The translations under genes were made by a program, and so were the position numbers. Below the pieces are notes generated by a model. That model made no database searches. It had not been told where the DNA came from and saw nothing but the letters and a program-made list of their open reading frames with translations. From positions 1-36,677 of the IMG/VR virus record IMGVR_UViG_3300008050_000124: a stretch of 36,677 nucleotides of DNA; one strand, written 5' to 3'. Shown here in pieces: positions 2,204 through 36,457 of the stretch; the stretch's first letter is position 1, and each line of letters begins with the position of its first letter. Source of the stretch: a virus.

Positions 2204-3498
2204 TGCCGAACAAAGTCTATATCAAGACAGGATTGGAAGCATCTCGCTCTGGAGTTACACCTGAGACAGGTGAGTTATTGTGGACAACAGATGACCATGA
2301 GTTGTTTGTTGGTGATGGGTCTACAGCGGGAGGGATATCTTTATCCTACTCCCCTACATCACATACCCATACAGACTACCTATTAAATACCACAGACTCG
2401 CTTACTGGTAACCTAGATGTTACAGGTAAGATGGCAATAGGTACGTCTATACACGGAACCTATGCACTAGCGATAAATGGGACTATAGAAGCAGGACAGA
2501 CTGGTGGCGGCCTACGGTTAGGCAACTCGGGTAATAACGGGATGATCCAATCCATAAATACCTCAAGCTCTTATGTCCCTCTGTATATACAAGCTGGTTC
2601 TTCATTCCTTACATCGGTAGACGGTGATAATGCTATTGGGGCCACAGCAGGGGGGAGTGTTGATCTATACTATGATGGAGTAAAAGTCGCTACCACAACA
2701 GCCGATGGGATAGATACTGATCAGATAGATTACACCACAACTCTAACACTAAGTGATGGCACTGCTAACCTGAAGATAGAAGGCAGAACTATTACTGGTG
2801 AGTTGGAAGCTGGTGGTAGTGAGGCACCTTTCATAGGACAGTCTCTTACCCAAGGTTTCACATACGGTGCTTTCGGTAACTCTCTACACATTGCATATGA
2901 CGAGGATGCAGATACTGAATCAGGCGCAGGTTATATAGCTGAGTCAATGACACACAAAGCCATATCAGGTGACTTTAAGTGGACGGTCGATGCTAATGTA
3001 GAGGTAGGTAGGCTCACTCAAGATGGTTATCTTGACAATGGTTTTAAGCGGCCCGTAGCTCACCTCAGGCAAGTCGCCAACCAGAACTTAGGAGGGGTAA
3101 ACGGGACTAACAATCAAGTAAAGTGGGATAAGACTCCTGACCGTATAGATACTGACTACTATACACACAGCACATCAACTAACCCTAGCCGATGTACTGT
3201 TGTTGAAGCTGGCAGGTATCAAATCACAGGTCATATAGGTCTGAACCCTTCAGGGTCTGGACGAACTACTCTGGTTATGAGGGTCAGGATAGACGGCTCT
3301 AATACACATGCAGGAGCCGCAAGGGGATATCACAGAGGTAGTAATTATGGTGACTTCAGTGTTCATCTGGATACCGAAAGAGAGCTAACTGCTGGTCAGT
3401 ATATTGAGATGGATGTCGAGGTAGACGATTCAGACGGTACATATACAACTGACACTTGGAAGGATGAGTGTGAGTTAATCATAAGGAAGGTAGAGTAA
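2203..3498 (+). CDS. Tail fibre protein with jelly-roll-like C-terminal head
   Basis: This 431-residue protein starts with the same kind of domain as its upstream neighbour (GELLWTTDDHELFVGDG at about residues 22-38), suggesting a shared attachment fold. The middle is Gly/Ser/Thr-rich and carries SHTHTDYL and LTGNLDVTG segments typical of fibre shafts. The last 150 residues form an alternating hydrophobic pattern (GRYQITGHIGL, LVMRVRIDG, GQYIEMDVEV) that resembles C1q/TNF-like jelly-roll heads found at the tips of phage fibres. It is translationally coupled on both sides through TAATG overlaps. A receptor-binding role is inferred. Confidence 0.7.
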   Translation: MPNKVYIKTGLEASRSGVTPETGELLWTTDDHELFVGDGSTAGGISLSYSPTSHTHTDYLLNTTDSLTGNLDVTGKMAIGTSIHGTYALAINGTIEAGQTGGGLRLGNSGNNGMIQSINTSSSYVPLYIQAGSSFLTSVDGDNAIGATAGGSVDLYYDGVKVATTTADGIDTDQIDYTTTLTLSDGTANLKIEGRTITGELEAGGSEAPFIGQSLTQGFTYGAFGNSLHIAYDEDADTESGAGYIAESMTHKAISGDFKWTVDANVEVGRLTQDGYLDNGFKRPVAHLRQVANQNLGGVNGTNNQVKWDKTPDRIDTDYYTHSTSTNPSRCTVVEAGRYQITGHIGLNPSGSGRTTLVMRVRIDGSNTHAGAARGYHRGSNYGDFSVHLDTERELTAGQYIEMDVEVDDSDGTYTTDTWKDECELIIRKVE

Positions 3499-3806
3499 TG
3501 GCGAGAACTAGAACAACCCCAGTTGTAACAAGGTCTATTGTAACAGATACTGTCGAACGCTTTGGCTTAGTCATAGACCGCAGGCAAGATGGGTCTATTA
3601 TCAACAGGAATGTCAGGCTTACTTACCAGATCGCTAACCGTGATGATGCAGGAGAGCCTGTGAACTATATAACCGAACGGCTACGTTTCAGTGATGTTGG
3701 TGCGAACACACGAAAAACCCTCAGAGATTTACATGATGCTATCTTGGCTCACGCTGAAGCCCAAGGGCACATTGGTGCTGGCACAGATGACGATGAATTG
3801 GTGTAA
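3498..3806 (+). CDS. Conserved-looking hypothetical protein
   Basis: This 102-residue protein follows the fibre genes directly (TAATG overlap). It has an Arg/Thr-rich N-terminus, a middle resembling a small beta sheet (RFGLVIDRRQDGSIINRNV) and a helical, acidic C-terminus ending in DDDELV. No family is recognised. Coupling to the fibre genes suggests a virion or assembly role, for example a chaperone or small fibre-associated subunit, but nothing in the sequence proves it. Confidence 0.55.
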   Translation: MARTRTTPVVTRSIVTDTVERFGLVIDRRQDGSIINRNVRLTYQIANRDDAGEPVNYITERLRFSDVGANTRKTLRDLHDAILAHAEAQGHIGAGTDDDELV

Positions 3807-26341: not shown

Positions 26342-28252
26342 CTAGTGTACTTCTGCCCAGTTCTTGCCTATCTTACCCTCTGCTCCAAGAGGTATGTTAA
26401 GTTTAAGTGTCTCACCTGATTGTTGTATACTACGTACTCCTAAGGCGAGTACCTTCGGTGCGTCATCAGGATCGCATTCCCAAATCTCTTCATCATGATA
26501 ACGAATAAGACCTACTGCTTGCAGTTCTGTTTTCTTGATCCAGTGATCCGCAATTATCATCGAGTACTTCATAATCACAGCCCCTGCTGATTGAAACAGA
26601 GCATTCAGTAAAGAGTGCTTACTCCTAGTCCATATCTTCCTCCCGTCCAGTCCGTTAATATATTTCTTACCGTTAATCTCCCACTCTTTTTCAAGATCAC
26701 GTTTGAGCTTACTCAGTGCAGGGTTAGCTTTCCAGAAAGCATCGAACACTTCCTGTGCTTCTGCTGTTGTACCGCCTAGTGTCTTAGCGAGAGTAGGGGG
26801 TTGAGCACCGTAGGTTATAGCGTACTTGAAAGTCTTAGCTGTAGTCCTGTCAGGTAACCCTAGCGCCTTCTGGTTCTTGGTGTGTACGTCACCCTCCATC
26901 AACTCCTTGGCGTACTTCCCATCGTCATACGGGTATGTGTAGTGAGCTTCCACACAAGCCTCCAGACTGGACGCATCCCAGCCTACCCATACTGTCCCCT
27001 CCCTCGCAGTGAAACAACTCCTAATGGCTTCTCCGTACTCAGAGGTGATACGTGGGACATTAGCTATGCCTTTGTGAGTCCACCTGCAAGTGTTAGCACC
27101 CATGCTATCAGCGTCACTAGGCATAGAGCTTGTAGGAGATCCCTTAGCCTTAGCTATCCAACCAGTACCCTTGTCGGATAACAAGATGTTCTTCCTTGAG
27201 CGGAGCATCAACCACCGTGATATGTCACTAGCCTTGTAGAAGCCCATACGGATAAGGTTAGGGCAAGGCTCCTTGGTGATCTTGTCAGTCAGGCGAGGTG
27301 AAGTCAGCACCTTCTTACCCTCTACGAACTTGTAATTCCAGTCAGTAGGTGACCAGCCCTCGCTTAGCAGCCAGTCCTTGAGAGCTGCTTGGTTCTTCAA
27401 GGTTAGTTTTTTATAACTAGTTATAGGTTCCTTCAAGGGAAGACGAAGCCACTCGTCACCACCTGTAGGGAACTTGAACTTAACAACCTGCTTACCATCT
27501 GAATCAGTTGAGATGCACCTGTCATGACGATCTACGTACCGGAGCAATGCAGCCGATGGAGTACCATCCTTCTTGAACTGTACTTTCGGGGGGTAGTCAA
27601 TCTCAGACTTAGTGAGAGGTATAGTAGGCAGCCATAGTACAGCATCCTCTTCTAGTTCTTTCATCTCTATACATATCTCCATGTAAGTCCTAGTTGCCAG
27701 ACTTACATCGAAGCGTACCTCGTGCTGTACCTGTTCATCGACCAGCGCAGCTACTTTCTGCTCTAGCTTAAGCGCAGTCTTCCAACTATCTTTGTTCTCC
27801 TTGAACAGGGGATCTAACAGCATGTGCTTAACTACTTCCCAAGTAACCTCGCAGTCCTTCTTGCAGTAGGCCTCTAACTCAGCCATAGTCGCCTCTGCAA
27901 AATCTATCTCAGATTTCCACTTAGTAGGGTCGGAAGGGAAGTAACTCTTAGCTACAGCGTCTAGGCTATGACCGCCTTTGACACCATGGAACATCAGCTT
28001 ATGTAAGAGCATACCGTCTAGCTGCTCATACATTGACAGGTCTACATCCCATAGCCTTTGGAGTAAAGGTATGTCAAACCTAGTCCCATTCCAAGTAACG
28101 ATAGTAGGTAACTCCTTAAAGGCACTCAGATAGCCCAAGAACCCTTCTACGGAGCGGTACGTACCACTAAATCCAGTACAAGGCTCATGTACTCCTATCA
28201 TGTCTATTCTAGACCACTCGAAGTCTGTTTCTATATCTACTACAAGATACAT
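26342..28252 (-). CDS. polA: DNA polymerase I, family A (T7-like), with 3'-5' exonuclease
   Basis: The product is 636 residues. The proofreading exonuclease motifs are D6-I-E8, N55...D60 and Y129...D133. Polymerase motif A is D426ASSLEACVEAHY. Motif B is R469TTAK473TFKY477AITYG, with Tyr at the position that is Phe762 in E. coli Pol I and Tyr526 in T7. Motif C is H586-D587-E588. There is no 5' nuclease domain, which is supplied by the separate exonuclease gene. It is the replicative polymerase, working with the adjacent primase-helicase. ATG follows AGGAG, which directly abuts palindrome copy 28262-28277; another copy lies inside the gene at 27411-27426. The Tyr variant is usually linked to lytic phages. 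Confidence 0.93.
   Translation of the reverse strand: MYLVVDIETDFEWSRIDMIGVHEPCTGFSGTYRSVEGFLGYLSAFKELPTIVTWNGTRFDIPLLQRLWDVDLSMYEQLDGMLLHKLMFHGVKGGHSLDAVAKSYFPSDPTKWKSEIDFAEATMAELEAYCKKDCEVTWEVVKHMLLDPLFKENKDSWKTALKLEQKVAALVDEQVQHEVRFDVSLATRTYMEICIEMKELEEDAVLWLPTIPLTKSEIDYPPKVQFKKDGTPSAALLRYVDRHDRCISTDSDGKQVVKFKFPTGGDEWLRLPLKEPITSYKKLTLKNQAALKDWLLSEGWSPTDWNYKFVEGKKVLTSPRLTDKITKEPCPNLIRMGFYKASDISRWLMLRSRKNILLSDKGTGWIAKAKGSPTSSMPSDADSMGANTCRWTHKGIANVPRITSEYGEAIRSCFTAREGTVWVGWDASSLEACVEAHYTYPYDDGKYAKELMEGDVHTKNQKALGLPDRTTAKTFKYAITYGAQPPTLAKTLGGTTAEAQEVFDAFWKANPALSKLKRDLEKEWEINGKKYINGLDGRKIWTRSKHSLLNALFQSAGAVIMKYSMIIADHWIKKTELQAVGLIRYHDEEIWECDPDDAPKVLALGVRSIQQSGETLKLNIPLGAEGKIGKNWAEVH
27411..27426. 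repeat. Dispersed palindrome copy inside polA
   Basis: Sequence TTATAACTAGTTATAG; the central TATAACTAGTTATA is a perfect 14-bp palindrome, within the reading frame. Confidence 0.85.
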
Positions 28253-28261
28253 GTCTTTCTC

Positions 28262-28277
28262 CTATAATGAATTATAA
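28262..28277. repeat. Dispersed palindrome copy upstream of polA
   Basis: Sequence CTATAATGAATTATAA. It contains the primase-helicase stop codon, and its inner end runs into the AGGAG of the polA ribosome-binding site. Confidence 0.85.
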
Positions 28278-29900
28278 AGTTGGTATTGATGCGACCCTCC
28301 CTGTAGACGGGTCGTACCGTAGACGGTCAGCCAGTCCAGTGAAACCCCATGTCCTGTTCTTCAGGATACGGGCTTGCATTTCGTTAGGATCCTCACCTTG
28401 TTGGTCACGCTCCAAAGCCATAACGCCCCAAGACAGTTGCTCAAGAGCTGCACTACCTCGGAGGTCAGTAAGCTCTACCTCGCCACCCTTGGCAAAGGAC
28501 TTGTCACCGCTTGACCGCTTAAGGTGCACGATCTGGATAAGCCCTACTCCAGTCTCAACTACCATCTTAGCAAGGTTAGTCATGAGTGTGTCAATATCCT
28601 TACGTTCATTGTTCCCGCCAGAGGCAGAGATAACCATGCTCAGGTGATCGAGAATGATGTAGTCCACGGACTTAGACTTAGCGTAGTAGTACAGTTTGTT
28701 CATAAGCGTATCAGATGTCAGCCCCCCGAAGTGCTTGTAGAAGTACGTACTGCCATTACCTACCATCTTATCATAACTAGGCTGGCACTCCTCCTTAGTC
28801 GGAGGATCAAACCTGAACTTAGATAAAGGTATGTCCATGTCCAGAGCAATCAACGCTTGTGCTGCTACCTCCATCTGATCCTCAAGCGCAACATTAGCTA
28901 CAGATAGTTTCTGTTCAATAAGAGACTTTGTAATCTCCCGCACTACAGTGGTCTTACCTATACCCGAGCCAGCACATACAGTCAGGATCTCAGCCTTGCG
29001 TACGCCATGGAGCTTACGCTGGATACCGTCAAAGGGAATCACATCACCCTCAGGCAGGGGATCTAGCAAACCGTCTAGGTCAATGTCCATGCCATTTACG
29101 ATACCATCAGGCTCGTACTGCTCAGCGTTCTTAATCGCTTTACGGAAGTCGTTACCTTTCTTTGCAGTCCAGTAGTCCGAGGCATCTTTACCGATCATAG
29201 GATCTAGTTGAATATCGTAACCACTAGTTATGCCACTGATCCAGTCAAGCATTTCAGCCTGTGCTTTCTGCCCCGGTTCGTCACCATCAAGGCAGAGATA
29301 AACACGCTTGTACTTCTCAAAGAAGTGAATCTCCTCTTCTACCAGCTTGCTGAAGTTAGCCCCGTTAGGCAGTGACACTATATCCATCTTAACAGCAGGT
29401 GACTTGTTCAAGATAGACCATGCCGCCATGCAATCCTCTTCACCTTCCACGACTAGCAAGTGCCGCCCTGTTATCTCGCAGAGCTGCTTACCCCATAACT
29501 GTTCAGGCTTCTTGCCTACGCTAGGTCTGAATTCCTTAGGGAGCTTGCGTACTTTATAACCAATTATAGAATCAGTACCCTTCCCAAACTGAGGATAGAA
29601 CACCTCGTCAGGCTCGCCAGTCTCAGGACTACAGCTATGCCGTACCCCGTACTTCTCAGCAGCCGTTGGTACGTTCCGGTAATCAGAAGTGCCGATAGGA
29701 TATGAGAGTACATGATCAACGGTTAGCTTGGATGACACAAAGATATCGCGGTGCTCTGTTCCTCCTCCTAGTTCATGGGCAGGGATACTACCGTGACCTG
29801 CATGGCAGTACCCGTTACCTTCAGGGAACACTACAAGGTGATCCCCTTTACTGTCCCTGCCGTCTGCACGGCATTTAGGGCATGCTGTTTTACGACTCAT
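28272..29900 (-). CDS. Primase-helicase (T7 gp4-like)
   Basis: The 542-residue protein fuses primase and replicative helicase. The N-terminal zinc finger has C7-x2-C10 with C32 and H33/H36. The TOPRIM primase has VVEGEED (around E152) and CLDGDEPG (D205/D207). The RecA-type DnaB-like helicase has Walker A GSGIGKTT (311-318), Walker B YIILDH (D418), QIVHLKR (457-463) and a probable arginine finger in LKNRTWG. This is the organisation of T7 gp4, which unwinds the fork as a hexamer and makes short RNA primers. Its start overlaps the preceding 44-codon gene (ATGA). Palindrome copy 29554-29569 is inside the coding region. Confidence 0.92.
   Translation of the reverse strand: MSRKTACPKCRADGRDSKGDHLVVFPEGNGYCHAGHGSIPAHELGGGTEHRDIFVSSKLTVDHVLSYPIGTSDYRNVPTAAEKYGVRHSCSPETGEPDEVFYPQFGKGTDSIIGYKVRKLPKEFRPSVGKKPEQLWGKQLCEITGRHLLVVEGEEDCMAAWSILNKSPAVKMDIVSLPNGANFSKLVEEEIHFFEKYKRVYLCLDGDEPGQKAQAEMLDWISGITSGYDIQLDPMIGKDASDYWTAKKGNDFRKAIKNAEQYEPDGIVNGMDIDLDGLLDPLPEGDVIPFDGIQRKLHGVRKAEILTVCAGSGIGKTTVVREITKSLIEQKLSVANVALEDQMEVAAQALIALDMDIPLSKFRFDPPTKEECQPSYDKMVGNGSTYFYKHFGGLTSDTLMNKLYYYAKSKSVDYIILDHLSMVISASGGNNERKDIDTLMTNLAKMVVETGVGLIQIVHLKRSSGDKSFAKGGEVELTDLRGSAALEQLSWGVMALERDQQGEDPNEMQARILKNRTWGFTGLADRLRYDPSTGRVASIPTL
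29554..29569. repeat. Dispersed palindrome copy inside the primase-helicase gene
   Basis: Sequence TTATAACCAATTATAG, exact arms, spacer CCAA, in the primase part of the coding region. Confidence 0.8.
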
Positions 29901-30791: not shown

Positions 30792-30807
30792 CTATAATTA
30801 GTTATAG
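30792..30807. repeat. Dispersed palindrome copy upstream of promoter P2
   Basis: Sequence CTATAATTAGTTATAG. It contains the stop codon of the AAA+ gene and lies 41 bases upstream of the P2 -35 box. Confidence 0.85.
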
Positions 30808-31914
30808 ACTCTCCCCAGTCACCCCTCGCCATACCTCACGAACGTCATCAGTCTCGCACTCAGAAACACGGGACAGGTAGTTCAGCTTGAAAGCCTGAGC
30901 TGGTGTCATCCCTGCGGTGGCCAGCTTAGTGATAGCTTGCAAGTTGCGCGGTGAGAAGTCAGTAGTCAAGGTGCCGTCCTTGTTCCCGATATGCAGCATA
31001 TTAGAAACAGTTGAGAGCACTGCCGCAGCCTCGCGGCCCATACCAAGAGCGAGAAGGAACTCGAACTCTTGCCCTTGTGTCAGGTAGTCCATTTCGTGGA
31101 CGATATCGAAACGGTTAAGGAAGGCACTGTCCTGTACATTAGATGCAATGTACTTGTCCATGCCATCACCATTACCCTTGGTGTTGTCAGCGGCCATGAC
31201 AGACCAGCCAGCACAAGGCTTGATAGGATCCATACCCTCGCCTTTCATTTCAGGCAAGATCAGCTCACGGCGGTCTAGGAGCGTCCCTAGCACCATCAGC
31301 GCACCAGCAGGAGCACGGGTCAACTCATCAAGGAGTACCAGATAAGGCTCATTAAAGGATCGAGGCAGTACACCGGGGACAAAGTTAGTATCCCCATCAG
31401 TGATATGCACCTGACCGAACACTTCAGGCTTGTCGAAAGCCTCAGTGAAAGGGATCCGCATATATGGACGACCCACCATTGCAGCGTACCATTCAGCCAG
31501 TTGTGTCTTGCCACAGCCAGTTGGCCCTGTCACGTTCTGCTTAAGACCTAAGGACTCGCAGAGAGAGAACTGCTCTATCATAGCTTTATCCATAATGTAA
31601 CCTTCCATAGGAGCTGCATGGTCGTAGCCGTGGTAGGTCTTGACAAGGTGGTCAATAGCAGGAGTCCAGCCGAATACCTCAGCGAATGGCTTCTCATCTA
31701 CAGTGTGGCCGTTCTCATCTACATAGATATGACCCACAAGAGCGGTAGGCTCCGGGGCAGGCTCCGGGGCAGGCTCCGGGGCAGGTGCGATCTTCGGCAG
31801 CTCGGACTCTTCAGGGCCAGCGCCCAGTATTTCACGGATCAGTTCATCAGACATAGTTGTATCTCCTTTAATGGCTTTAATTGGGTCAAGTTTCTTACGG
31901 TCACTAGTTTTCAT
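30802..31914 (-). CDS. MoxR/CobS-like AAA+ ATPase
   Basis: The product is 370 residues. Walker A is GPTGCGKT (130-137), Walker B is LVLLDE (192-197), the sensor is in AADNT (241-245), and FLNRFD gives Arg 268 as the arginine finger. The fold and the A-D-N-T-x-G-x-G-D pattern match CobS-type MoxR ATPases. Residues 44-57 are a PAPEPAPEP linker encoded by 12-base repeats. It probably acts as an ATP-driven partner of the VWA protein encoded just upstream, like N4 gp24/gp25 or CobS/CobT. Two in-frame starts have good ribosome-binding sites: 31914 (CGGAG, just after the palindrome) and 31854 (AAGGAG). 31914 is chosen because it gives the usual palindrome-to-ribosome-binding-site spacing; 31854 may be the main start. 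Confidence 0.78.
   Translation of the reverse strand: MKTSDRKKLDPIKAIKGDTTMSDELIREILGAGPEESELPKIAPAPEPAPEPAPEPTALVGHIYVDENGHTVDEKPFAEVFGWTPAIDHLVKTYHGYDHAAPMEGYIMDKAMIEQFSLCESLGLKQNVTGPTGCGKTQLAEWYAAMVGRPYMRIPFTEAFDKPEVFGQVHITDGDTNFVPGVLPRSFNEPYLVLLDELTRAPAGALMVLGTLLDRRELILPEMKGEGMDPIKPCAGWSVMAADNTKGNGDGMDKYIASNVQDSAFLNRFDIVHEMDYLTQGQEFEFLLALGMGREAAAVLSTVSNMLHIGNKDGTLTTDFSPRNLQAITKLATAGMTPAQAFKLNYLSRVSECETDDVREVWRGVTGESL
31747..31782. repeat. Tandem 12-base repeat in the AAA+ gene
   Basis: Three exact copies of AGGCTCCGGGGC in a row, encoding the repeated Pro-Ala-Pro-Glu linker on the minus strand. Its in-frame length suggests slippage-prone linker variation between related phages. Confidence 0.85.
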
Positions 31915-31927
31915 TTTGATCTCCGAT

Positions 31928-31943
31928 CTATAATTAGTTATAG
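31928..31943. repeat. Dispersed palindrome copy between VWA and AAA+ genes
   Basis: Sequence CTATAATTAGTTATAG, just after the VWA gene stop and three bases from the CGGAG ribosome-binding site of the AAA+ gene. Confidence 0.85.
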
Positions 31944-31945
31944 AA

Positions 31946-33640
31946 TTAAATAAACTTCCGCTTGATAACGGAAAGTAGTGTGGGTTCAAGCTCAGATACT
32001 CTGGAGAGCACTTTACATTCAGGATAAAAAGATTCAACGGAACGGGACTCGATGCCTATACCGTACAGTTCACAGGAGCTGCCTATGTACTCTACTACAT
32101 CGCGCAGGTGACTAGCAGCATCTCCGGGTCGGTCGCAGCATGGCATACCATCAGACAACACAATGATCATCTTACGCTTCTCGGGCCGTGACATGATATC
32201 ACGGTAGGCCAGCATAAGAGAGTCACCATCAGCGTTTTGATGCAGCTTAGTAGATACCTTACCGAAATCTTCCACCATCTTTTCACGAGTACGATGTTCC
32301 GTGTAGTCCTTAATGATGTAGTCCTCAAGCTGAGATTCTCCCATGCGGGATCTCTCAGTGAATGCGCTTATTTTTACCGGGACTTTGAGAGGTGCCATAC
32401 TCTCAGCCATAAGCACTGAGGCAGCACAAGCAGCTTCAAATCTCGGGCCAGACATTGAGCCAGAGGCGTCAACAAGTAGATATAAAACAGTGCCTTGCGT
32501 TGATATCTTATCAACCTTTCTAGTAAACACATCACGAGCGCCGCTGGGTATACGGTACAGATCTCTCTTATCCAACCGGCCAGACTTGCGATTATGCTCA
32601 GTTAGAGATTGAGTTCGCGATTGAAAAAGCCGCTTAACTTTCTGGCTGAGCTTGCTGCCTTTACTTATATGTTCATTAGCGCAGGGAATGAACAGGTCGT
32701 CCACCCTAGGCAGATCTCGAGCCTTCTGGACAATGATCTCATCAGGACGATAGGGCTTGTAATCGTAGTAACGATCTTCTGTATATTCGATCACACCGTA
32801 CTCGCCACCAGCACCACCAGACTCGCCCTTGTGCACATGGCCTATCAAGTCCTCGTACTTGACAGTTCCGCCGGACTTACCACCATCTTCCGACTCTTCT
32901 ACCTTGCCATCGGCCTCGTATTCACCTTCCCCTTCCTCCGACTCACCTGTCTCGCCTTCCTCACCTTCTGCCGCAGACTTTGCCTTTTCTAGTTCATCTT
33001 CAAGATCAGACTCGGGATCCGCGTCAAAGAGCTTGCATACTAGGGCATAAACGTCATCGAAAGTAACGATATTGTATAACTCGTTATAGAACTCATCGAA
33101 CCTGTCAGGATTCGACACTCTAGAGAATTTCATACTAGGCGCTACCAGATCCGGTTGCCATTCCGCCCTGCACTTGTAGATCCAGCCGAACAGGTCTGTC
33201 ATAAACTGGTCTTCAGACTTAGCACCCGGCTTAGCAAGCGCCTCAGCCCCACGGTTGCAGTAAAAGCCCTGCATATAGGAGAGTACTTTGCAACGGCCGG
33301 GGAATTTGCCGTGATTATTGCGCTCATTGCGCCAATCTTCTATAAGGTTCGTTACTCTACCTACCCGACTATCAAACCCAATATTATATTTTTTCATCCC
33401 CGGCAGCAGGTCTGAAAGTTCAGGTGCGTGATGCCCGACTTCGTGGTAGTTCTCGCCTAACCACATCATAAGGTCGTGCTCAGTCCACTTACTGCTAGGC
33501 ATACGGGTATATATCTTGCCCGTTTCCATGCAAGTCCTAGGCTGACTACAGTCTTCCTCGAATTCAAAGTGCAACTTGCCTTTAGTAGTGATACGGCCAA
33601 ACCGCGTCAACGCATTTAGCCTTTGGTATGCATCAATCAT
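31946..33640 (-). CDS. VWA (CobT-like) protein with HEXXH N-terminal domain
   Basis: The product is 564 residues. The N-terminal half contains H66EVGH70, the HEXXH zinc-peptidase signature, in a domain like the putative metallopeptidase domains often linked to VWA modules. Residues 205-255 form a very acidic Glu/Gly-rich linker, as in CobT. The C-terminal VWA domain has the MIDAS motif D391-A-S393-G-S395, NADGDSL (469-475) and VLSDG (494-498), the order seen in CobT. Its partner AAA+ ATPase is the next gene, so the pair resembles CobS/CobT or phage N4 gp24/gp25. A cobaltochelatase role is possible given the B12-dependent reductase, but a chaperone-like or host-takeover role is as likely. The stop of the preceding gene overlaps its ATG. 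Confidence 0.8.
   Translation of the reverse strand: MIDAYQRLNALTRFGRITTKGKLHFEFEEDCSQPRTCMETGKIYTRMPSSKWTEHDLMMWLGENYHEVGHHAPELSDLLPGMKKYNIGFDSRVGRVTNLIEDWRNERNNHGKFPGRCKVLSYMQGFYCNRGAEALAKPGAKSEDQFMTDLFGWIYKCRAEWQPDLVAPSMKFSRVSNPDRFDEFYNELYNIVTFDDVYALVCKLFDADPESDLEDELEKAKSAAEGEEGETGESEEGEGEYEADGKVEESEDGGKSGGTVKYEDLIGHVHKGESGGAGGEYGVIEYTEDRYYDYKPYRPDEIIVQKARDLPRVDDLFIPCANEHISKGSKLSQKVKRLFQSRTQSLTEHNRKSGRLDKRDLYRIPSGARDVFTRKVDKISTQGTVLYLLVDASGSMSGPRFEAACAASVLMAESMAPLKVPVKISAFTERSRMGESQLEDYIIKDYTEHRTREKMVEDFGKVSTKLHQNADGDSLMLAYRDIMSRPEKRKMIIVLSDGMPCCDRPGDAASHLRDVVEYIGSSCELYGIGIESRSVESFYPECKVLSRVSELEPTLLSVIKRKFI
33074..33089. repeat. Dispersed palindrome copy inside the VWA gene
   Basis: Sequence GTATAACTCGTTATAG, exact arms with spacer CTCG. 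Confidence 0.8.
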
Positions 33641-34032: not shown

Positions 34033-34539
34033 CTACTTGATAGTGGCACCCGCCTCGGCCTTTTTGTAGAGAGCTATCGCACCATCAATCAGCTTTAACA
34101 TTTCCTTTTTTTGAGCCTCACTAGCACCTGACTCAAAAGCCTTCAGCGTTTTAACTGCTATGCTGTCAGTATTTGCAGCGCCTTTGCCTGCTCCAACCTT
34201 AGTGCCTACCAGATTACTATTCTGCACCTTGCAGCCGAATCCGAACATTTTGCGGGATTGAGTAGCAAGTGAGGCTTTGTAACTGGCTAGAGTTTCCTTG
34301 TCATCATTCCTCTCGATTTCCTCCCAACCTTCGACGATCAAGTCGACATTGGAAAAGATACACTCCTCGGCAATCAAGCCGTTAGTAAAGCTGTCCTCAA
34401 GTGCTCCCCGGAAGGCAGCGGCCAGTCCTTTAGAGGTGCTCGCGGCTTGTGCAAAAGGGTTGACGTATTCAGAGTCGAAAGTTACTTGGTATTTCTCAGC
34501 GGTAGTGTCAGTGGCTGCTATTGCTTTAACGGTATACAT
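34033..34539 (-). CDS. First leftward early gene, unknown function, 168 aa
   Basis: The product is 168 residues: beta-rich N-terminal part (VKAIAATDTTAEKYQVTF), an Ala/Ser/Gly-rich helix, a middle segment with NVDLIVEGWEEIER and YKASLATQSRKMFGFGCKV, and a C-terminal Lys/Ala helix. No catalytic motif is seen. It is the first gene read leftward from the control region, where phages often put host-takeover genes. Its 5' leader carries two strong dyads (see 34570-34646). A DNA-binding or antirepressor-type role cannot be excluded or shown. Confidence 0.55.
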   Translation of the reverse strand: MYTVKAIAATDTTAEKYQVTFDSEYVNPFAQAASTSKGLAAAFRGALEDSFTNGLIAEECIFSNVDLIVEGWEEIERNDDKETLASYKASLATQSRKMFGFGCKVQNSNLVGTKVGAGKGAANTDSIAVKTLKAFESGASEAQKKEMLKLIDGAIALYKKAEAGATIK

Positions 34540-34569
34540 AATAGTTTCCTGCCCTATGGGACTTTAGAT

Positions 34570-34646
34570 GGGGATAATCCCCGATTAAATGAGAGGTGTA
34601 ACCTCTCGAAATAGACCATGATAGTGAACTGTTGCCAGAACACTAT
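34570..34646. repeat. Cluster of three dyads upstream of the first leftward gene
   Basis: Dyads: GGGGAT-A-ATCCCC (34570-34582); GAGAGGT-GTA-ACCTCTC (34591-34607); ATAGTG ... CACTAT (34621-34646). The first two are perfect and within 70 bases of the ATG, so they are either leader hairpins or operators. Confidence 0.65.
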
Positions 34647-35095
34647 ACTTGTATATTTCTTATCGCCTATCTTTTTTGATAGTGCGTTTGACCTAGTCCC
34701 TATATGCCAGTTGATCGTAGTCACCTCAATCGGCCTCGCTCTCTTTCAGGTTAGGGCTGGCAACGTCATGTGACGGCTTATGCCAGTATCCAGTCTTATA
34801 GCCTGTTTTATCGATGTCGAAGAGTGCTGCTAGTGTTGAGTCAATACAATGCTTTGCAAAAGGTTTTCAGTCTAAAGGCATAGGACGCCGGATCAAGGGC
34901 AGTGCGCTAGCCTAGCAGTTTACATGGGTTGTCAATCCGGATCTGGCCTCAGCAACGAGCAATCACAGAACATGCCTTTCAGGGGAGTTTTGGGACAGTG
35001 ACGGAAGCCCGGTTCACTTCTGGTATGTCCCCTGATCGCCCTGATCAGGATTCCCAATATACAGATCATGACAAGGAACACAACTACTTTCTCAG

Positions 35096-35111
35096 CTATA
35101 ACGGATTATAG
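35096..35111. repeat. Dispersed palindrome copy in the control region
   Basis: Sequence CTATAACGGATTATAG, exact arms; the minus-strand reading contains TATAAT but no -35 box is found at 16-18 bp. Confidence 0.8.
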
Positions 35112-35402
35112 ATAGAACATCGAGTTATAAGCTTATGCATTTCAGTTATATATAGTTGCTATAAATAGGTGACTGTATTCTCCCCGGATCCTGCCCGGCA
35201 GTGTTAATGGTTATATGTAGGCATGGTTATATATCTAAAGGTTATTAAAACTGTACATTTATTGATCAAATTAGGGGTATTTTAGGGGGTTTGCAAACAG
35301 TTGCATAGCCTCTCAGACGCCCTGTACGGCCCTGTACCGAATGCTGGTGATCAGAGGTGCCACGGTATCAGAGCCTAGAGATCGTTGATTCTGGGATAAG
35401 TC

Positions 35403-35460
35403 TGTGGATAACCTGTGGATAAAAAGGGGCATCTAAAGCCTGTGGATAACCTGTGCATAA
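35403..35460 (+). other. DnaA-box cluster, candidate replication origin
   Basis: Three perfect TGTGGATAA boxes (35403, 35414, 35441) and one variant TGTGCATAA (35452) form two pairs, each with 11-bp spacing, both pairs in the same orientation. AT-rich DNA (35100-35290) to the left could serve as unwinding element. The near-palindrome CATAACTCGTTATAG abuts the last box. Host DnaA would be able to bind here; the phage encodes its own helicase, so DnaA could act as an opener or a regulator. Confidence 0.7.
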
Positions 35461-35499
35461 CTCGTTATAGATCAAGGGTTTAATGGCGCTCGGGGTCAG

Positions 35500-35583
35500 C
35501 CGGGATCACCGGGATAATACCGGATAGTTTGACTGTTTCAAGCAAGCCTGACTGTTTCGGCTTAGGTGCAGATGCAGGCACCT
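35500..35583. repeat. Short direct repeats and hairpins near the DnaA boxes
   Basis: CCGGGAT at 35500 and 35509 with a third, shortened CCGGAT at 35520; TGACTGTTTC at 35530 and 35549 (19-bp period); hairpins AAGCC/GGCTT (35544-35563) and AGGTGC/GCACCT (35564-35583). Confidence 0.55.
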
Positions 35584-35650
35584 TGTACCTTAGGCGGTTG
35601 CCACCCTAACTCTCCCCCTACCCAGATCCCCTGGATCCAGAGCCAGAGAC

Positions 35651-35674
35651 AGACCTAGATCCAGACCTAGATCC
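35651..35674. repeat. Two tandem 12-base repeats
   Basis: AGACCTAGATCC twice in direct succession, flanked by degenerate GATCCAGAG-like sequence on both sides. Confidence 0.7.
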
Positions 35675-35697
35675 AGAGCACTTGGCCGCGCTCTATC

Positions 35698-35738
35698 GGG
35701 GGGGCGGGGGGGACGGGGGCATGGCCCACCTTGGGGGG
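35698..35738 (+). other. G-quadruplex-type tract
   Basis: Four G runs on the + strand (G7, G7, G5, G6) separated by C, AC and a 13-base loop. The first three alone could fold as a three-layer quadruplex. It lies between the DnaA boxes and promoter P3. Confidence 0.6.
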
Positions 35739-35923
35739 TGCCACTGCCACTTTAGAAAAGTAGATTTTGAAACCTCCTTCGGATTTGACTTCGTCTGAAC
35801 GCCAAATATAGGTAATCGGGGGGATTTTAAGTCGAAAGAATTGAACTTCAGGGGTTTTAAAGGGTCTATATACTGCTTATTTCTGTCTTTTTGCTCAATA
35901 ACGTAAATAATTTAAGAAAAAGC

Positions 35924-35952
35924 TTGACTTTTAGTCAAAAGTATGGTATAAT
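35924..35952 (+). promoter_or_regulatory. Rightward sigma70 promoter P3
   Basis: TTGACT (35924-35929), 17-bp spacer, TATAAT (35947-35952), extended -10 TGG. The -35 box is half of a perfect dyad TTGACTTTTAGTCAA (35924-35938). It shares TGGTATAATATA with P1 and P2 and is the likely start of the late operon (small terminase, lysozyme-like gene, then presumably terminase and portal). The transcript leader (about 150 bases) contains GCCTAG/CTAGGC and GATTAAA/TTTAATC stems. Confidence 0.88.
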
Positions 35953-36093
35953 ATACCTATAGTATGGAAAAGTTCTTAGGGACTGGCCTAGACAGGTGAT
36001 AAAGGGGACTAGGCACCATGATTAAAAAAGAAATTTAATCTTTTCAAAACTAAACACTCTTTCCCCTGCCCCCTGCTATAATTGAAAACCAAC

Positions 36094-36111
36094 TTAATAC
36101 AGGTGTATTAA
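36094..36111 (+). promoter_or_regulatory. Inverted repeat enclosing the ribosome-binding site
   Basis: Perfect 7-bp arms TTAATAC and GTATTAA with AGGT between, ending 4 bases before the ATG at 36116. The AGGTG of the ribosome-binding site spans the loop and first arm base. As RNA it could mask ribosome access; as DNA it is a dyad operator. Confidence 0.55.
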
Positions 36112-36115
36112 CTTC

Positions 36116-36457
36116 ATGGGCGATAAGAAGATAGGGCGACCTAAGGCTACCAAGCTATCAAGGGGTAGACCGAAGGGTATGGAGACTATAATGAAGGATT
36201 ACCGCCTTCGTATGCTCCGTAGTCCTAAATCTAGGAAGGTTCTAGAGTCTATATTCGATGCAGCGTTAGATGACGACCATAAGCATCAGGCTGCTGCATG
36301 GAAACTTATAGTAGATCGTATAGCGCCTGTAAGTACCTTTACTGAAGCATCAGGTAAGAAGACTGGTGGTATCGAAATCAATATCACTGGGCTTAGTGCT
36401 GATGCTCGTCCTGTGGAGTCCATTGACGCTGAGTTCAAAGAGGTCGAAAGTGAGTAA
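36116..36457 (+). CDS. AT-hook protein, probable terminase small subunit
   Basis: The product is 113 residues. Residues 7-10 and 16-21 are GRPK and RGRPKG, AT-hook DNA-binding cores. The middle is a helical region (MLRSPKSRKVLESIFDAALDDD then HQAAAWKLIVDRIAP), and the C-terminus is acidic (IDAEFKEVESE). Its position at the start of the rightward morphogenesis operon and the DNA-binding plus helical plus acidic layout fit a small terminase subunit, which recognises the packaging site. The family cannot be confirmed by eye; a DNA-binding regulator is the alternative. Confidence 0.6.
   Translation: MGDKKIGRPKATKLSRGRPKGMETIMKDYRLRMLRSPKSRKVLESIFDAALDDDHKHQAAAWKLIVDRIAPVSTFTEASGKKTGGIEINITGLSADARPVESIDAEFKEVESE

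Follow-up and report, generated by a model that had tools for sequence, protein, structure and literature searches.

The stretch of DNA analysed here (the window) is a virus record from IMG/VR, 36,677 bases long, whose contig has no terminal repeats. It carries a compact array of DnaA boxes which, judged by sequence comparison, is strongly supported as a recruitment site for host DnaA. This conclusion is based on the conservation of the array in place, on the helical phasing of box pairs and on the fact that bacterial dnaA/oriC loci carry the identical pair. The original prediction went one step further and proposed a DnaA-linked phage origin; while recruitment of DnaA stands, an origin role is plausible and would be one possible use of the array.

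The array and its gene-free region

The window reads as most of a lytic podovirus genome. Its structural genes lie on the plus strand, while its replication genes, among them a PolA-type polymerase, a primase-helicase, an exonuclease and a ribonucleotide reductase, lie on the minus strand from 34539 down to 19960. Comparison with its closest full relative (G001, see below) indicates that the contig stops short of a full genome, lacking the large terminase and most of the portal gene between its two ends. The genes needed in the following are:

34033..34539, minus strand: first leftward (early) gene, no function assigned
36116..36457, plus strand: putative gene for the small terminase, assigned solely from its position; no family match
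28272..29900, minus strand: primase-helicase (phrog_239)
26342..28252, minus strand: PolA-type DNA polymerase

Thus the phage has its own primase-helicase, as had been noted from the sequence. Its description as T7-like is justified for this protein and the PolA-type polymerase; however, the genome layout is closer to A-4L, Pf-WMP3 and VpV262 than to T7, and tblastn gave no significant match to a T7-type RNA polymerase, the phage single-subunit enzyme of T7-type promoter-primed origins, in G001, G002 or the (incomplete) window. A CobS-like ATPase and a CobT-like VWA protein are encoded as a pair adjoining the replication genes (window 30802-33640). No relatives were retrieved with the CobT-like protein, and a search for relatives with a 763-aa protein gave no match.

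The array comprises four perfect DnaA boxes (TTATNCACA), all on the minus strand and arranged as two 11-bp pairs set 38 bp apart:

35391..35399, minus strand: doubtful degenerate box TTATCCCAG, 3 mismatches, 12 bp from box 1, found as a repeat copy
35403..35411, minus strand: DnaA box 1, TTATCCACA, perfect
35414..35422, minus strand: DnaA box 2, TTATCCACA, perfect, 11 bp from box 1
35441..35449, minus strand: DnaA box 3, TTATCCACA, perfect
35452..35460, minus strand: DnaA box 4, TTATGCACA, perfect, 11 bp from box 3

This arrangement had been predicted correctly, and a listing of all sites with zero or one mismatch revealed no other perfect TTATNCACA in the 36.7 kb. Among 300 simulated genomes, which contained 0.62 boxes on average, none had two boxes less than 60 bp apart, and the expectation for four boxes within 50 bp is about 6e-11 per genome. 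A chance origin of the cluster is excluded. A consensus DnaA-box cluster in noncoding DNA, as looked for in oriC-type origins, is therefore present. The tandem boxes are separated by 2 bp, within the limit of the basal unwinding system, which combines tandem boxes (gap of 3 bp or less) with DnaA-trios within about 16 bp 3' of the box (PMC8287927). By eye, three weak trios at most lie beside the window boxes; over all viral arrays no trio enrichment was found by a test which missed the bacterial positive control as well.

As predicted, the array is placed inside a large gene-free region: with a single 60-aa TTG ORF, 34540-36115 is the largest stretch of the window that lacks a convincing gene, and it separates divergent gene sets. 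It contains the following elements, the conserved blocks being those found by aligning this DNA with its counterpart in G001 (blocks A to E):

34881..34992, minus strand: block E, leader of the leftward transcript, 74% identity in G001
35056..35083, minus strand: candidate leftward early promoter TTGTGT-16-TATATT, aligned by eye with TTGCAC-16-TATAGT of G001
35226..35285, no strand: AT-rich stretch of low duplex stability, candidate unwinding region
35288..35361, minus strand: block D, direct repeats of about 10 bp (GTACAGGGC CGTACAGGGC) and CTATGCAACTGTTTGCA, 78% identity in G001
35441..35475, minus strand: block C, boxes 3-4 plus TTGATCTATAACGAG, 94% identity in G001
35697..35778, minus strand: block B, GC-rich with several plus-strand G-runs (GGGGGGGCGGGGGGGACGGGGG...GGGGGGTGCCAC), conserved, candidate genome end or packaging site
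35924..35952, plus strand: rightward sigma-70-like promoter TTGACT-17-TATAAT, upstream of the packaging genes, retained in relatives

The original claim that the boxes sit beside AT-rich DNA holds only in part. The weakest 60 bp nearby (35226-35285, z about 3) are indeed unstable but lie about 120 bp off the boxes, while the adjoining 100 bp are average in stability; the promoter region at 35904 is unstable as well. Adjacent AT excess was also lower at viral arrays than at bacterial loci, a comparison confounded by intergenic length. GATC is enriched in the gene-free region: its composition predicts 9.0 sites and 16 are present (scan p about 0.001). As a trait of the arrays this enrichment was rejected, since viral arrays overall have 227 GATC sites where 279 are expected.

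A GC-skew profile, proposed as a check of the origin, gave no evidence for it. The bulk cumulative minimum near 35 kb vanishes at four-fold sites, where coding-strand skew on either arm is weakly negative or close to zero. Thus the skew shows no leading-strand pattern from the array, and the minimum was rejected as evidence because it reflects coding bias.

G001 (IMGVR_UViG_3300046167_000580; 39,847 bases), found through its primase-helicase (72% identity), is collinear with the window and has a 93% identical major capsid protein. Its perfect boxes, five genome-wide, all lie at 179-273 in the equivalent divergent gene-free region, with the second box group inverted and the DNA around the boxes diverged. 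More distant relatives (L148 to L151) retain block B and the rightward promoter and lack the boxes; most relatives of the window phage are without the array. Plain close conservation within the family was therefore rejected: the terminases of L148 to L151 are 78-79% identical to that of G001, yet these relatives are box-free.

Several further features of this region deserve mention. Repeats resembling block D occur, by reading, in L143 as well. Block E (counterpart at L130 835-943), which follows the early promoter, might form a structured RNA; a three-sequence fold gave no clear structure, and the window has no match to Rfam or in a tRNA scan. Repeats of the GAAACAGTCAGGCTTG type (window 35526-35565, L148 2218-2243, L150 519-541), perhaps a phage operator or iteron, are common to the window and to relatives that lack DnaA boxes. 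The region of the DnaA boxes of other relatives is occupied in L148 (500-1130 and 2000-2200) by TATATTACGGAGTG-N5-6-CCARAAACTC, present four times, and by sequences resembling a Fur box (GATAATGATTCTCATT), recognised by eye. The G-runs at 35690-35745 (GGGGGGGCGGGGGGGACGGGGG...GGGGGG) could fold as a G-quadruplex, and a G-rich element is retained in relatives and adjoins the box arrays of L534, L548 and L559. The contigs of G001, G002 and L149 terminate within block B; this could reflect a genome end, or merely a G-run that is hard to assemble. The array lies in the divergent early/late control region, probably close to the physical genome end.

Box pairs in other genomes and their link to the terminase

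Among 2.9 million viral contigs (IMG/VR), the exact pair TGTGGATAACCTGTGSATAA was found at no fewer than 120 loci, where we estimate a chance expectation below one. Spacing and prevalence figures refer to the matches listed. Among these, 88 of 120 loci have three or more boxes and 109 of 120 are noncoding (100-aa ORF rule), with a median intergenic length of 933 bp. A looser word (TGTGGATAA-N0-30-TGTGGATAA) gave, among 114 listed loci, start-to-start spacings of 11-13 bp at 59, of 20-24 bp at 30 and of 30-34 bp at 14; 75% of the listed loci were noncoding (36% expected). With the reversed word as control, spacings were mostly multiples of three and 32% were noncoding (18% expected). The spacing pattern is that of helical phasing, as expected from cooperative DnaA binding. 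Bacterial copies of the pair are noncoding in 110 of 118 cases, and their flanking proteins (n=76) include dnaA 19 times, dnaN 12 times and dnaB 5 times.

The viral arrays vary in box number (2-11) and orientation and occur in phages of unlike replication type (T7-like, T5-like and Microviridae); no fixed partner sequence was found beside them. The Microviridae-type records, small single-stranded DNA phages (H54, H62, H68, H72 and H76), have near-identical tandem DnaA pairs, mostly in unannotated DNA. On the 3.8-kb plasmid pSOE2 of Candidatus Pantoea edessiphila (L437), the pair is present in six exact copies at 3417-3608.

Genes flanking the pairs are more often divergent than convergent (22 to 3 among the exact-pair matches listed; 20 to 8 in a second count). 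This is what one would expect if DnaA, bound between divergent early and late promoters, repressed or activated one of them, and the array indeed lies between two conserved promoters, at 35924 (rightward) and at about 35083 (leftward). The Fur-box-like sequence that an array-less relative has at this place, by eye, fits such control as well. However, the boxes are about 320 and 460 bp off the conserved promoters, too distant for simple blocking, while a nearer leftward promoter match (35541-35514) is weak and not seen in G001. We consider transcription control the least probable purpose of the array.

A podoviral large terminase was found at 43 of 120 exact-pair loci compared to 2 of 120 control loci among the matches listed, and in a tally of flanking proteins the terminase large subunit occurred at least 11 times in 133 as against 2 in 127 for the control. 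In both DnaA searches the best matches of these terminases belong mostly to the group of the window phage and are mainly 44-61% identical (47 of 62). The boxes lie upstream of the terminase in 61 of 62 loci, at a median distance of 1,347 bp.

Loci picked by their boxes are subject to ascertainment bias. Therefore, loci were also sampled by their terminase alone, 48 of them with at least 1.7 kb upstream, a cluster being defined as at least two perfect boxes in a span of 60 bp. An array precedes the terminase in 7 of the 48 loci, or in 8 under a relaxed rule; this prevalence is a lower bound since some array-free loci have barely more than 1.7 kb upstream. Eight clusters fell into 136 kb of upstream DNA and one into 528 kb elsewhere, the latter 54 bp beyond the cut-off. 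With the relaxed rule, eight loci upstream compare with none in 396 kb elsewhere; shuffled words averaged 0.4 loci.

On the terminase tree the 9 array-bearing rows require 9 changes, compared to 8.5 with shuffled labels. L534 and L536 have near-identical terminases and share 93% identity over a span that starts at the array edge and takes in the terminase, while a three-box stretch of one has an unlike counterpart in the other; L584 and L570 differ similarly across about 120 bp. Since arrays are gained or lost between near-identical relatives at a fixed place, the module is precisely placed but optional. By these comparisons, terminase-linked arrays turn over rapidly. We found no account of such arrays in the open-access papers searched.

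The quick coming and going of optional arrays is a property expected of DnaA titration, the main rival of a replication start. Multiplying phage genomes would soak up DnaA and thereby halt host initiation, the array being an accessory host-takeover element that fits into the main noncoding space. The variable box number and orientation, the unlike replication types of the carriers and the missing partner sequence are in line with this idea. However, titration alone would not need the very restricted position, although noncoding space is scarce in such genomes, and four boxes per genome are few until the phage copy number is high. As the purpose of the array, titration is possible, yet rather doubtful.

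A possible replication start near the genome end

Recurrence ahead of packaging genes and quick swapping suggest that the clusters probably serve either the start of the phage's own DNA or host takeover. The likeliest single purpose, though in our estimate short of an even chance, is a DnaA-assisted replication start near the genome end. Host DnaA would bind the 11-bp-spaced pairs as a phased oligomer and destabilise nearby DNA, with 35226-35285 or block D as candidates. The opened DNA would provide an entry point for the phage primase-helicase and polymerase and the array might thereby act as an optional or helper start near the terminus. T7 replication starts at promoters using the phage's own RNA polymerase; a DnaA start could replace this promoter-primed start.

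The position of the array, its oriC-type pair, the T7-type replisome and the failure to detect a T7-type RNA polymerase favour an origin. We count against it the 7-8 carriers among 48 loci, the scatter on the terminase tree, the difference between L534 and L536, and the arrays which RNA-polymerase-bearing T7-like phages carry in terminal repeats. Also adverse, or at best neutral, are the lack of a clear unwinding element near the boxes and the skew minimum that coding bias accounts for. Among the metagenome array loci, those with an RNA polymerase were too few for a with/without contrast.

These terminal repeats point to another possible function. In the Berlinvirus A7 all eight perfect boxes lie within the 177-bp terminal repeats, and DnaA bound to a terminus might pace DNA entry, protect the end, or aid concatemer processing or packaging. 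Such a role has been suggested for the injection stop signal of T5, whose listed features include DnaA boxes (PMC13250531). Arrays also occur in the early terminal DNA of the T5-like River4 (a box pair) and, with three boxes, where the Vibrio BD1 record ends, apart from those upstream of terminase genes. Furthermore, the A-4L, Pf-WMP3 and VpV262 records end at the equivalent junction, where VpV262 also has its annotated terminal repeat. On the other hand, pairs are enriched only weakly at contig ends (p about 0.01). The array is absent from the T7, KP34, VpV262, SIO1, A-4L and Pf-WMP3 records examined, and its absence from T7, KP34, A-4L and VpV262 speaks against a genome-end function, which from this analysis appears unlikely.

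The array of A7 (Shigella phage VB_Ship_A7, L185; 22-147 and 39903-40028) occupies the place of the CCTAAAG-type repeats of T7. The repeat sequence of A7 is common to P483 and nasanit, and portions of it are also present in Enterobacter phiEap-1 and in a number of Klebsiella phages; other relatives share the neighbouring terminal sequence only. In FBKp16, six boxes precede the early genes.

To our knowledge, it is not settled how a T7-type replisome begins DNA synthesis when the phage has no RNA polymerase. One might speculate, with little confidence, that widespread and rapidly exchanged DnaA-recruiting modules at the terminase-side end of lytic phage genomes let such replisomes start with host DnaA and are swapped for sites of other host proteins as hosts change. 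Array presence and absence between near-identical phages makes the start question directly testable, and a site-specific array of this kind would link the control of host initiation to lytic phage replication or takeover.

Comparison with known systems

With bacterial oriC and the DNA upstream of dnaA the window shares the identical tandem pair with its 2-bp gap in noncoding DNA, which in bacteria lies beside dnaA, dnaN or dnaB. In contrast, no dnaA or Rep gene was found in the window, neither an adjacent AT-rich element nor DnaA-trios could be made out clearly, its helicase is a phage primase-helicase and the array is patchy among relatives.

A7, P483 and some Klebsiella and Enterobacter podophages likewise have same-strand boxes in noncoding early or terminal DNA, at steps of 11-12 and about 22 bp. 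However, those examined encode an RNA polymerase and are T7-like Autographiviridae, and a location within the terminal repeat is demonstrated only for A7. T5 resembles the window in the DnaA boxes of its injection stop signal region (PMC13250531), as does River4 in the pair of its early terminal DNA, while T5 is a siphovirus with two-step DNA transfer and no such entry is known for the window phage.

With T7, finally, the window phage shares the primase-helicase together with a PolA-type replisome, whereas T7 has no box cluster and a T7-type polymerase was undetected in the window.
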